From contig NZ_NZMB01000018.1 of assembly GCF_002694385.1 (NCBI RefSeq), positions 156,255 to 204,793 of the forward strand: DNA of 48,539 bases. The letters run 5' to 3'. Numbering within the stretch: position 1 is the stretch's first letter; each line of letters begins with the position of its first letter. Below the pieces are notes generated by a model. The model saw nothing but the letters and a program-made list of their open reading frames with translations. It was not told where the DNA came from and did not search any database. Shown here piece after piece: positions 5,698 to 9,167 of this stretch. Source of the DNA: Sneathiella sp. Its GTDB lineage: Bacteria > Pseudomonadota > Alphaproteobacteria > Sneathiellales > Sneathiellaceae. The translations under genes were made by a program, and so were the position numbers.

Positions 5698-5727
5698 AAC
5701 TGTCCGTCTATTCGTAGACGGACAGTT
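5698..5727. repeat. 13-bp inverted repeat between metY and the VOC gene
   Basis: Perfect arms 5698-5710 and 5715-5727 around the loop TTCG. The VOC stop codon lies in the left arm, so half of the hairpin is coding. There is no T-run on either strand, so it is either a hairpin for transcript 3' ends on both sides or a weak bidirectional terminator. Confidence 0.6.
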
Positions 5728-6085
5728 CGATCAGATTGAGATCAGGATCACGCACATAGATTGACGTGATCGGCCCTCTCGCGCCCGTGCGGACAACCGG
5801 GCCCATCAGGATAGACACCCCGGCAGCCTCAAGCCGGGCCGCCATCGTCTCCAGCTCTCCCTCGATAATGAAGCACAGATCCGCCGTCCCTGGCCGGGCA
5901 AGATGCGCTTTCGGCTCAAACTCATGCCCGGCCAGATGCAGATTGATCTTCGACGCACCGAAGTGAAGCGCACGCCGTCCCTTTCCCGGCTCCTGATACG
6001 TCATCCCAAGTAATGAACAGTAAAACTGCTTCGTTTTGTCAATATCCACAACAGTCAAAACAAAATGATCGAGATTTTTAATCAT
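5708..6085 (-). CDS. VOC (glyoxalase/dioxygenase superfamily) protein
   Basis: A 125-residue single VOC module. It opens with the family pattern LDHFVLTVVDIDKTKQFY and closes with DPDLNLIELSVYE. Candidate metal ligands are H7 and E120, the usual first and last ligand positions. Similar short alphaproteobacterial proteins are annotated as virulence- or lactoylglutathione lyase-related, but the reaction is not known. AAGGGAGA precedes the start. It is divergent from the hfa-like operon with an 87-base gap that contains an 18-base palindromic element. Confidence 0.9.
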   Translation of the reverse strand: MIKNLDHFVLTVVDIDKTKQFYCSLLGMTYQEPGKGRRALHFGASKINLHLAGHEFEPKAHLARPGTADLCFIIEGELETMAARLEAAGVSILMGPVVRTGARGPITSIYVRDPDLNLIELSVYE

Positions 6086-6172: not shown

Positions 6173-6604
6173 ATGAATAAAATCACTCTTGCAGCAGCCG
6201 CCATCTTCCTTGCCCTGCCGCTTCTGGCGCAGGCCAAGGATGGCACCGTGACTGCCGCCGTCGGCTGGAATAACAGCGCCGGTTTCCAGACTTCCTATGA
6301 CATCAGTTCCAAAGCGGCAATCGCCGACCTTATCGAGAAGAAGGAGAATGGATATTACGACCAGTGGAAACGCCCGATCAACTATAATACCTATATCGGC
6401 GCACAGGTGACCACCATTGGCGCGCAGACGATCTTTCAGGACAGCAACCTCGACAACGTCATCGTCACCACGACCAACTGCGGCGAGGTAGTTAGCGCCA
6501 CCTCTGTCAAATCCGCTGACAGCAATCAAATCAACGTCACAGGCAGCGGCTGCAACGTCACCACCAACAATATGAGCAATCCAAATGAATACTACCCTTA
6601 TTAA
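6173..6604 (+). CDS. hfaA: Exported HfaA-like holdfast/curli-type protein
   Basis: A 143-residue protein with a signal peptide (residues 1-21, cleavage after AQA). The mature part is rich in Asn, Thr, Gly and Val, with blocks such as TIGAQTIFQDSNLDNVIV, and has two cysteines (C103, C127) likely to pair outside the cytoplasm. In Caulobacter, HfaA is a small secreted protein that, with HfaB and HfaD, fixes the holdfast adhesin to the cell surface. The assignment rests on composition, size, export signal and above all on the overlapping CsgG-type gene downstream; it could instead be another curli-like subunit. GGGA lies upstream of the ATG. Confidence 0.6.
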   Translation: MNKITLAAAAIFLALPLLAQAKDGTVTAAVGWNNSAGFQTSYDISSKAAIADLIEKKENGYYDQWKRPINYNTYIGAQVTTIGAQTIFQDSNLDNVIVTTTNCGEVVSATSVKSADSNQINVTGSGCNVTTNNMSNPNEYYPY

Positions 6605-7364
6605 GGTCGTCCTTGCACCGCTTTTTATTTCCGGTTGCATCGCGACCAGCGGTGAGAATGTGACATTGATCAAGGGACCACCGGTGGAGACCGTGCAAAC
6701 GCCCTATGATCGTCTGGTTGGCTGTATCGCGGCGGCTCATCCGATGCGGGGCGTCTGGGCCGTTGGCGATATCGTCGATGCCACCGGAAAATTCAGCGCC
6801 GAATATGCCGGGACCGGAAAATATATCACGCAAGGGGCAGGCGACATGATGCAGACGACTTTGTTGCAGGCAAAGGCGGAAACCATCGTCAACCGCCGTG
6901 ATCCCCGCCCGCTTCTCGCGGAAATCAACCTCGGCATTCGCAATCCGAAAAATTTGATGGTGATGGATTACTATATTACCGGCTCCATCAATACCCTCGA
7001 TTTCATTCCCGGGGCCGCTGCGGAGGTGACGGTTGCGGGTATCGGCCCGCGCTATCGCCAGAACCGCGCCGTGGTCGGGCTGGATCTGCATCTGACCGAG
7101 GCGGGAACCTCCCGCGTGCTGGCGGCGACGCAGATCTCGAAGCAGATCTACGCCGATGAGGCAGGCTTCGGCATTGGCCGCTTCTTTGGCGATACGCTAG
7201 TCAATCTCGACATATCGGGTCAGAACCGCGAACCGCTCCAGCTCTCGCTTCGCGCCATGCTGCAATTCGGTCTGTATGAGATGCTGGCGCAGCTTAATCC
7301 CGGACTGCGCCCTCAGTGCCAGCCCATCGTCGAGGCGATTGAGGGGGTTGAAGATAATTCATAA
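6585..7364 (+). CDS. hfaB: CsgG/HfaB-family outer-membrane secretion lipoprotein
   Basis: A 259-residue lipoprotein of the CsgG/HfaB family: lipobox ISGC with the lipidated cysteine at residue 18. The core follows the CsgG order: a VGDIVDATGKF-like strand (near 66), a long helix region with repeated Gln/Leu, an ITGSI block (near 131), an AGIGPRYRQN segment (near 150) and the closing SLRAMLQFGLYEML helix. CsgG forms an oligomeric outer-membrane pore for curli subunits; HfaB is needed for holdfast anchoring. The start overlaps the hfaA stop by 20 bases, with no separate ribosome binding site, which points to translational coupling. Well supported as CsgG-like; the holdfast role is inference. 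Confidence 0.82.
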   Translation: MNTTLIKVVLAPLFISGCIATSGENVTLIKGPPVETVQTPYDRLVGCIAAAHPMRGVWAVGDIVDATGKFSAEYAGTGKYITQGAGDMMQTTLLQAKAETIVNRRDPRPLLAEINLGIRNPKNLMVMDYYITGSINTLDFIPGAAAEVTVAGIGPRYRQNRAVVGLDLHLTEAGTSRVLAATQISKQIYADEAGFGIGRFFGDTLVNLDISGQNREPLQLSLRAMLQFGLYEMLAQLNPGLRPQCQPIVEAIEGVEDNS

Positions 7365-7425
7365 CAAGAAGCAACCGGACAGGTTGCCTGTCATAACGTT
7401 AGCTCATTTCATGAAGGAATATTGA

Positions 7426-7851
7426 ATGAAGAAGATGATTATCGGCGCATTCGCGCTTTCTCTGATGGCGGCTCCGGCTCTTGCCGACAGCACGATCGAC
7501 ACTGGTTCCATTACCTCCGGTGACGGTCATGTCGGTTTTAACTATTCGGAAGTCAGCGTCTCCGGTGGCAATCATATCATCACGACAAATGGCAACTATT
7601 CCGCCAATTTCGGATCGATCAACGCCGGGCATGTGGTTAACATCACCAGCTATACCAACTCCGATATCGGCGCGCCGTCGCTAACCTTGCCGGCAGCGAG
7701 TGAGGCCTTCGAGATGCCGGAAATCAGCCTGTACACCACAGGCACCACGGCCGTTGGCGCGACCACCTATTACGAATCCGGCTTCAGCCCGGTGATCACG
7801 CTCGGTAATGGCATTGTCGAACCGTTACTTGAGGAAGAAGTCAGCTTCTGA
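7426..7851 (+). CDS. Exported protein of unknown function, third gene of hfa-like operon
   Basis: A 141-residue protein with a clear signal peptide (residues 1-20, PALA). The mature chain is Gly/Ser/Thr/Asn-rich with little charge until an acidic tail (PLLEEEVSF), has no cysteine, and has aromatic residues spaced through beta-like stretches. AAGGA precedes the ATG, 61 bases after hfaB. Caulobacter has HfaD in this place, but HfaD is much larger, so this is not a simple HfaD. It may be a substrate or partner of the CsgG-type pore. No family is recognised. Confidence 0.7.
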   Translation: MKKMIIGAFALSLMAAPALADSTIDTGSITSGDGHVGFNYSEVSVSGGNHIITTNGNYSANFGSINAGHVVNITSYTNSDIGAPSLTLPAASEAFEMPEISLYTTGTTAVGATTYYESGFSPVITLGNGIVEPLLEEEVSF

Positions 7852-7908: not shown

Positions 7909-9027
7909 TCACCCGGCGAGCACGCCGCCAGCGGATTCCGACTGCCGTCCCCTCGCCCGCACCATATGCAACACATAGACGGCGGCGGCCAGCACCAGCA
8001 TACCCCCCGCCTGATGCTTCGCCCCCAGATGCACCGGCACAACATAGAGCAGTGTCAGAATACCGATAGCAACCTGCAACAGGATCAGCACGAGCAGGAG
8101 CGTGACGCCCCGACGAAGGGGCGCGTCCGTATCCTCGCCCCGGCTGATGAGATACAGCCAGATACCGGCGATCAGGATGGCATAGCCCAACATACGATGG
8201 ACGAACTGGATCGTTGCCGGATTTTCCAGGAAATTATGGAACCACGGCTGCAACTCCATGCCGCCCGGTGGGAAAAACTGCCCGCCCATCATCGGCCAGT
8301 CGGTATAGATAAAGCCCGCATTCAGCCCCGCGACAAAGCCGCCAACAAGGATTTGCAGAATAATCAGGCCCATCAGAAAATAGCTTGTCTGCCGCACCCG
8401 CGCACTCACCATGGCAGGCGCTTGCGTGCGATCCGACAGATCGAAAATGGTCCAGAGCAGCGCGGCGAAAATCAGGCTCGCCAGCCCCAGATGCGCCGTC
8501 AGGCGATAATGGCTGACATCGGGATGATCGACAAGGCCGCTCATCACCATGAACCAGCCCATACCACCCTGCGCCGCGCCGAGCAGGAAAAGAAACGCCA
8601 GCCGCGGGATGAGCCCGCGCGGGATTTTCCGAAACAGCAGCAGCAGCACAAAAGGCACGAAGAAGGCCAGGCCGATCACACGCCCCAGCACCCGATGCGC
8701 ATATTCAAAGGCGTAGATGCCCTTAAAATCATCGAGGCTCATGCCCTTGTTGATCTTCTGATATTCGGGGAAGCTCTTGTAGCGCTCGAACTCCGCTGTC
8801 CAGGCCTCCTGCGTCAGGGGCGGCAGCCAGCCCGTCACCGGCTTCCATTCCGTCATGGAGAGGCCGGAATTGGTGAGCCGCGTGACGCCGCCGAGCACGA
8901 TCATGGCAAAGACCAGCACGGCCACCACCGTCAGCCAGACAATCACCAGCTTGCGCCCGTCACGGCTTTTCCGGCCCTGATCCAGCGCCGCGCCCGGAAC
9001 GACGCCCTTTTCCATATCCATTGTCAT
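7909..9027 (-). CDS. ctaA: Heme A synthase, COX15/CtaA type
   Basis: An eight-helix inner-membrane enzyme that oxidises heme O to heme A for aa3-type cytochrome oxidases. About 372 residues from the ATG at 9027; ATG codons at 9021 and 9015 are alternatives, and none has a good ribosome binding site. Heme-ligand histidines sit in AHRVLGR (about residue 111), SHYRLTAH, VHRMLGY and AKHQAGG. The GGVTRLTNSGLSMTEWKP motif after the first helix marks the long COX15 class of alphaproteobacteria and mitochondria. It stands alone between convergent and divergent genes. Confidence 0.95.
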   Translation of the reverse strand: MTMDMEKGVVPGAALDQGRKSRDGRKLVIVWLTVVAVLVFAMIVLGGVTRLTNSGLSMTEWKPVTGWLPPLTQEAWTAEFERYKSFPEYQKINKGMSLDDFKGIYAFEYAHRVLGRVIGLAFFVPFVLLLLFRKIPRGLIPRLAFLFLLGAAQGGMGWFMVMSGLVDHPDVSHYRLTAHLGLASLIFAALLWTIFDLSDRTQAPAMVSARVRQTSYFLMGLIILQILVGGFVAGLNAGFIYTDWPMMGGQFFPPGGMELQPWFHNFLENPATIQFVHRMLGYAILIAGIWLYLISRGEDTDAPLRRGVTLLLVLILLQVAIGILTLLYVVPVHLGAKHQAGGMLVLAAAVYVLHMVRARGRQSESAGGVLAG

Positions 9028-9167
9028 GGCCCGCAAAATAGCCGAATTTCCCGCGATGGCAATATCCGACGGCCAAATGCGGCACTCCGTCGCAGGGGTG
9101 ACGGTGGATAGCTTGCCAAACCAGTAGATACTTGCATTGCGGGAATAATTGCCAGATATTTTAGGGC

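Follow-up and report, generated by a model that had tools for sequence, protein, structure and literature searches.

A three-gene cassette of Sneathiella sp. probably encodes a self-contained CsgG-type export module, HfaAB-like with a third subunit and on a branch of its own, in which protein 1 would act as the docking and anchoring subunit and protein 3 would be a variable surface protein. The cassette lies in a stretch of 48,539 nucleotides, which is referred to here as the window. An earlier reading made from the sequence only had proposed a minimal CsgG/HfaB-type module with a subunit set unlike that of hfaABD, and the analysis described below supports this part of the earlier reading.

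The Cassette and Its Linkage Across Sneathiella Genomes

The cassette consists of gene 1 (P0001, 143 aa; 6173..6604, + strand), which encodes a protein with a signal-peptide-like start and a docking-like N-terminal signature, gene 2 (P0002, 259 aa; 6585..7364, + strand), which encodes a CsgG-family lipoprotein and presumed outer-membrane pore, and gene 3 (P0003, 141 aa; 7426..7851, + strand), which encodes a fast-evolving exported protein and candidate surface substrate. The open reading frame (ORF) coordinates confirm the co-directional arrangement described in the sequence-only reading, with an overlap of 20 bases between genes 1 and 2 (6585..6604, + strand), and the signal-peptide-like N-termini of proteins 1 and 3, read from the sequence alone, agree with its description of two small exported proteins. 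The edges of the cassette are set by two genes outside the module, a VOC/glyoxalase gene on the left (5708..6085, − strand) and a ctaA/COX15 gene on the right (7909..9036, − strand), and a family scan of the neighbors identified a Cys/Met-metabolism PLP enzyme, a VOC/glyoxalase protein and CtaA. Promoter and terminator scans of the cassette returned nothing useful, and the sole tandem repeat detected (7126-7149) is inside gene 2, with none in genes 1 and 3.

Relatives assign the window to Sneathiella or to a genus grouped with it. Across the genus, the pore gene was found in 17 of 24 genomes, counting that of the window, and in 14 of the 17 genomes that are 90% or more complete with no more than 5% contamination. 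Gene 3 follows the pore gene in all 17 pore-bearing Sneathiella genomes, including locus L027, and gene 1 precedes it in 16/16 testable genomes (15 as listed ORFs, the 16th being L019), a count that leaves out L031 (genome G020), where the sequence stops just upstream of the pore; the three-gene linkage expected from the window alone is thus consistent throughout. In L008 and L019, the gene 1 frame is unbroken and has no ATG, GTG or TTG start, indicating that the start codon is either rare or mutated. Of the seven genus genomes that do not have the pore, four are 56-70% complete, and the three that were examined (G004, G005, and G007) are 99-100% complete. All three cassette genes are jointly missing from these three genomes, in which the VOC and ctaA genes adjoin, tblastn placing them 7 or 26 bases apart or overlapping by 9, and the order metY-VOC-ctaA is kept. 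In the cassette-bearing relatives that were compared, the cassette adjoins ctaA and, in all but L011, also VOC; no VOC match was found beside the cassette of L011. Because the genes are linked in the pore-bearing Sneathiella genomes (17/17 and 16/16) and are jointly absent from the same site in three genomes, they form one unit: the three ORFs are real genes and a single genetic unit.

The CsgG-Family Protein, a Presumed Pore

P0002 matches the CsgG family PF03783 (E 1.6e-12, 47.6 bits against a Pfam gathering threshold of 20.8) and is the only CsgG match in a search of the whole 3.6 Mb genome. A profile of its relatives finds a solved CsgG structure (E 1.2e-8), the CsgG alignment reaches residue 233, and the profile match spans positions 4-227. 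The best-conserved part of the protein, residues 128-210 (mean pairwise identity 0.84 vs. 0.70 overall), is the region that we take to hold the barrel hairpins. On the strength of this homology, the gene 2 product is likely an outer-membrane channel.

The sequence-only reading had called P0002 a CsgG/HfaB-type lipoprotein, and the first part of that label holds: in addition to the family match, the protein has a lipobox-like FISGC whose cysteine, Cys18, is invariant in 13/13 alignment rows (read from the sequence). The HfaB part does not, as P0002 reaches 69.3 bits against the HfaB equivalog NF037935, a partial match below the cut-off of 300. In a tree of 40 pores, the 16 Sneathiella pores form their own clade (support 100/98), separate from a clade of 12 HfaB-labeled rows (100/98) that were named by locus type, with the first protein checked in L041 only. 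The low score and the position outside this clade set P0002 apart from HfaB. Seven group-3 pores (79/99) and two group-2 pores (99/99), from CsgG loci discussed below, are each apart from the Sneathiella clade, and the rows for CsgG and L047 are on very long branches. One genome of the survey, G039, has five CsgG-family matches.

A Pore-Linked Signature in Protein 1

Mature protein 1 is 38% N+Q+S+T, in keeping with its earlier description as Asn/Thr-rich. Neither P0001 itself (no convincing match) nor the 12 members of its family (no model matching more than two of them) could be assigned to a Pfam or NCBIfam family, and a match to DUF1190 (E 0.0013, one member only) was set aside as isolated. 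Similarly, a search of the protein 1 profile against solved structures gave three matches, all to unrelated molecules (best E 0.5), and an AlphaFold model built from 12 aligned sequences has a mean pLDDT of 43.6 and provides no usable structure; the helix that it places in the signature region (residues 41-59) is at pLDDT below 60 and carries no evidential weight.

The N-terminal region of the mature protein (residues 22-66; 6236..6370, + strand) carries the signature GWNNSAGFQTSYDISSKAAIADLIEKKENGYYDQW, identified with hhalign and genome searches and approximated by the pattern F-x-[TS]-x(3)-K-x(5)-A-D-L-[IR]-E-K-[KR]-x-[GN]-G-[FY]-Y-D. These approximately 40 residues are common to the first gene of a second set of CsgG loci (group 2: L059, L061, L062, L085, L098, and L099). 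The comparison with six group-2 sequences gave E 1.4e-12 with 49% identity over 37 columns, a value that is partly circular because L085, L098, and L099 were found by the signature itself, while a comparison resting on L045 and L046, both found by their pore, gave E 8e-12 with approximately 50% identity over 40 columns; reversed controls gave E 0.47-0.61. All hhalign E-values reported here are those of single pairwise comparisons, with 36 group pairs compared (15+6+5+10) in addition to the reversed controls.

To survey the signature, a model of 76 positions was searched against a class set of 385 genomes and a phylum sample of 398 genomes. In the class set, eight genomes matched and a CsgG homologue adjoins the match in 8/8, an association that is partly built in, as the rows of the model had been found by their pore and six of the eight genomes (that of the window, G001, G014, G018, G102, and G190) fed the model or near-copy its rows. 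The finds outside the model, G063 and G362 in the class and G602 and G620 in the phylum, have a CsgG homologue directly adjacent in 4/4 cases. A further match, in G749, covers 25 residues of an 822-residue frame at E 0.0079; with no CsgG homologue in the 3 kb of sequence examined, it was rejected as chance. The signature is not general among CsgG loci; six of the 30 pore-matching class genomes are also among the signature matches.

All 16 protein 1 sequences compared have exactly two cysteines, one of them in a constant Cys-Gly, and two are also present in 6/6 group-2 first proteins. In P0001 these residues delimit the segment from Cys103 to Cys127 (6479..6553, + strand), and their conservation suggests that they form a disulfide. 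Mean pairwise identity in protein 1 is 0.43 in the signature region and 0.22 in the last third. A short duplication (IGAQVTTIGAQ) is found at 6395-6427 of the window, and the longer form also occurs in some relatives.

No direct match connects protein 1 to known partners of CsgG-family pores. The HfaA model NF037934 finds neither P0001 (at E 1) nor any of 12 family members, and as a control it recovers the HfaA of L041 (90 bits, cut-off 50); direct comparison of the protein 1 and HfaA profiles gave E 0.11, and there was no similarity signal between protein 1 and the single CsgF compared, from L057. A chain of intermediate families nevertheless leads from protein 1 to HfaA. It begins with the group-2 comparison described above (E 1.4e-12), continues with the match of group 2 to small proteins encoded at a third set of CsgG loci (group 3; E 4e-4, probability 35%, reversed 0.56) and ends with the step from these to HfaA (E 2.9e-7, 93%, reversed 0.13-0.14). 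The middle link weakens to E 0.0045 with three group-2 sequences, and its alignment crosses low-complexity sequence. Column shuffles around this link reached the observed score in 2 or 3 of 200 cases in each of five tests, which is suggestive, and in two of the five tests one shuffle each scored an outlying 130.9. Taken together, these comparisons make a distant kinship between protein 1 and HfaA likely, through a chain with one weak link.

A Fast-Evolving Third Protein

Protein 3 is the fastest-changing part of the cassette, yet it is under constraint. Identity to the window's copies is 10-40% for protein 3 (13 relatives), 21-57% for protein 1 (11 relatives) and 48-78% for the pore (12 relatives), while the neighboring metY is 79-84% identical in relatives. 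In the L003-L005 pair, the only one with a gene 3 dS well below saturation (the other six being at least 1.4 or not computable), gene 3 has a dN of 0.23 and a dS of 0.54 (dN/dS 0.43), and the corresponding dN and dS are 0.09 and 0.68 for gene 1 and 0.07 and 0.39 for the pore.

The composition of protein 3 is in keeping with its earlier description as low in charge: the mature form of P0003, taken by hand to start after residue 21, lacks C and W and has 0 K/R in its 120 residues, and the lowest K+R fraction among the 88 mechanically listed window ORFs of at least 150 aa is 5%. Of 18 family members, P0003 included, 16 have no Cys, and the number of K+R varies from 0 to 16.

Searches for the origin of protein 3 gave no convincing relatives outside its own family. 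P0003 has no convincing Pfam or NCBIfam family, no such family is found in more than two of 14 members, and a TrAA12-like match (E 9.8e-5) in one member only was set aside as isolated. The five matches of its profile to solved structures are to unrelated molecules (best E 0.067). The AlphaFold model from 14 aligned sequences has a mean pLDDT of 46.3 and gives no usable structure; as both small proteins have means below 47, the beta-solenoid models that the sequence-only reading anticipated did not materialize. No signal of descent from HfaD was seen: protein 3 has no profile similarity to four HfaD-position proteins, which were chosen by position and remained after one near-copy was dropped; the one HfaD-position protein that was scanned matched no HfaD model. 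There is also no detectable relation to the repeat proteins of other CsgG loci. In the class-wide profile search, 48 of 385 genomes matched, four of them Sneathiella genomes with known loci. The other 44 were not counted: the best of them reaches E 6.6e-6, which is weak, and almost all start at profile position 1, in the signal peptide.

A Gly-Asn rung motif derived from other loci is enriched in both small proteins at the family level (Fisher statistics of 64.3 with 32 df for protein 1 and 67.9 with 36 df for protein 3), although these values are overstated since family members are related, and it is not enriched in P0001 and P0003 taken singly (p 0.36 and 0.68).

Proposed Mechanism and Alternatives

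In the export module that we favor, proteins 1 and 3 would cross the inner membrane by means of the signal peptides seen in their sequences and would then exit through the gene 2 pore. Protein 1 would dock in the pore via its conserved N-terminal signature, in the manner of CsgF with CsgG, and its Asn/Thr-rich tail, presumably held by the disulfide, would remain outside as an anchor. Protein 3 would be displayed at the surface, attached to or polymerized on protein 1, and may vary fast because it faces the environment. This reading draws on the CsgG homology, the linkage of the genes as one unit, the pore-linked signature, the chain to HfaA, the precedents of CsgF and HfaB, and the gradient of identity across the cassette. 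Against it we count the lack of direct similarity to HfaA or CsgF, the weak middle link, the G749 match, the limited occurrence of the signature, the lack of relation between protein 3 and the HfaD-position or repeat proteins, the rung-motif result for P0003 (p 0.68) and the uninformative AlphaFold models. Conserved cysteines would moreover be unexpected in a substrate that crosses a narrow pore unfolded, which counts against export of protein 1. A broader and more tentative interpretation, which we consider possible and somewhat doubtful, is that the signature marks a class of CsgG docking proteins that replace CsgE and CsgF, combining pore plug and surface anchor in one chain, with a hypervariable partner as cargo. 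Such a class would be present in several alphaproteobacterial families and is unnamed in the scanned libraries, the cargo being protein 3 here and much longer exported proteins elsewhere.

The cassette could instead assemble a curli-like amyloid, with protein 3 as the main fiber subunit and protein 1 as the nucleator, both exported by the pore. The presence of a CsgG-family pore beside small exported proteins with a high content of Asn, Ser, Thr, and Gly, the lack of basic residues in mature P0003 and the family-level rung enrichment (overstated by kinship) are consistent with this, as is the high variability reported for CsgA homologues in PMC3521004; however, the genome has no curlin repeat, P0001 and P0003 are themselves not rung-enriched (p 0.36 and 0.68), genes 1 and 3 have no tandem repeat and the AlphaFold models give no support, and we regard an amyloid as rather unlikely. 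If only protein 3 were exported, protein 1 might remain in the periplasm and serve the pore as a gate or chaperone, in place of CsgE or CsgH. The two cysteines in 16/16 sequences would suit a disulfide-bonded periplasmic fold, and the association of the signature with CsgG homologues also favors this role, but a poorly conserved tail (0.22 vs. 0.43) is unlike a folded chaperone and the signature proteins of other loci bear longer Ser/Asn/Gly-rich tails (read from the sequences), making a gate or chaperone unlikely.

Two further explanations have less in their favor. A true holdfast anchor, that is, an HfaABD orthologue tethering a polar polysaccharide, would account for a gene order like that of hfaA-hfaB-hfaD and for the partial pore match to the HfaB model, but it is very unlikely given 69 of 300 bits for HfaB, no HfaA match, a pore outside the HfaB-labeled clade and no similarity to the HfaD-position proteins; the same results do not support membership in HfaABD. 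Alternatively, the CsgG-like protein may be a periplasmic lipoprotein that forms no pore, with the two small proteins being unrelated envelope proteins. The CsgG Pfam family is broad, with 171 curli proteins among 601 hits (Dueholm et al., PMC3521004), yet the CsgG alignment runs to residue 233 (profile positions 4-227), the presumed hairpin region 128-210 is the most conserved (0.84 vs. 0.70) and the three genes are gained or lost together, and we consider this explanation highly improbable. Collectively, the export module with a docking subunit and a variable surface protein remains our preferred reading.

Relevance and Comparison With Known and Related Systems

The cassette is among the smallest CsgG-type systems compared here, and the docking function that is missing in Alphaproteobacteria has a concrete candidate in its pore-linked signature. 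Comprising three genes at a single site, and present in some related species but absent from others, the cassette offers a small and genetically clean test case; S. chungangensis (L006) and S. litorea (L003) are among the cultured species that carry it. CsgG-type pores serve as nanopores, a field to which a new docking segment could be of interest. In the literature searched, no paper combined Sneathiella with curli, and, judged by titles, none of the papers found on the Hfa proteins (HfaA/HfaB/HfaD), on CsgG families or on alphaproteobacterial CsgG and CsgF describes the module.

In curli systems, the separate accessory factors CsgE and CsgF surround the pore. The cassette shares with curli a CsgG-family pore and, by inference, a CsgF-like N-terminal docking segment in protein 1. 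In contrast to curli, no CsgE (PF10627), CsgF (PF10614) or curlin repeat (PF07012) was detected in the whole genome, with the E. coli control positive each time, and protein 1 is dissimilar to the one CsgF compared; the sequence-only reading had noted the same absence for the surroundings of the cassette. In E. coli, CsgF is described as lining the channel of CsgG with its N-terminal residues, which form a loop and then a helix, and as depending on CsgG for its own export (PMC7304575), while CsgF is reported to regulate CsgA secretion and to take up the nucleator CsgB (PMC10133297). Moreover, Alphaproteobacteria are reported to be without csgE, and approximately half of the genera also without csgF, so that other proteins must substitute (Dueholm et al., PMC3521004).

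In Caulobacter, HfaA and HfaD are reported to reach the outer membrane or surface only with HfaB, and HfaA multimers to depend on HfaD (PMC6707917). The Sneathiella cassette is like HfaA-HfaB-HfaD in its order of a small exported protein, a CsgG-family pore and a third exported protein. It is unlike HfaABD in that its pore is in a separate clade and under the HfaB cut-off, protein 1 is unmatched by the HfaA model, mature P0003 is 120 aa long and without detectable similarity to HfaD-position proteins of 195-285 aa (one of them cut by the locus end), and there is no known holdfast context.

Other arrangements around CsgG-family proteins were observed in the survey. Group-3 loci (L060 and L063-L068) combine CsgG with a large exported protein, which often begins FDxxNW and in which an Ala-Thr-Ala-Val-Gly-Asn-Asn element recurs, and with a small protein that is HfaA-like; SEL1/TPR-like repeat genes, recognized by eye, follow in L060, L064, and L065, and Pfam had no match for the large protein of L060 or the small proteins of L060 and L067. 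A very divergent version, with a small exported protein, a CsgG-like protein (pore match E 2e-20) and an exported protein, is found at L047/L070 in G220, a genome of 1.5 Mb. In the group-2 loci, a CsgG homologue was scored in 6/6 cases and a long exported protein, in place of the short protein 3, lies downstream in the same direction in 5/6 (not L062), either immediately or after up to approximately 1.4 kb. Their first proteins have longer tails than protein 1, and the two group-2 pores in the tree are in another clade; like the cassette, they have the protein 1 signature beside the pore and two cysteines.
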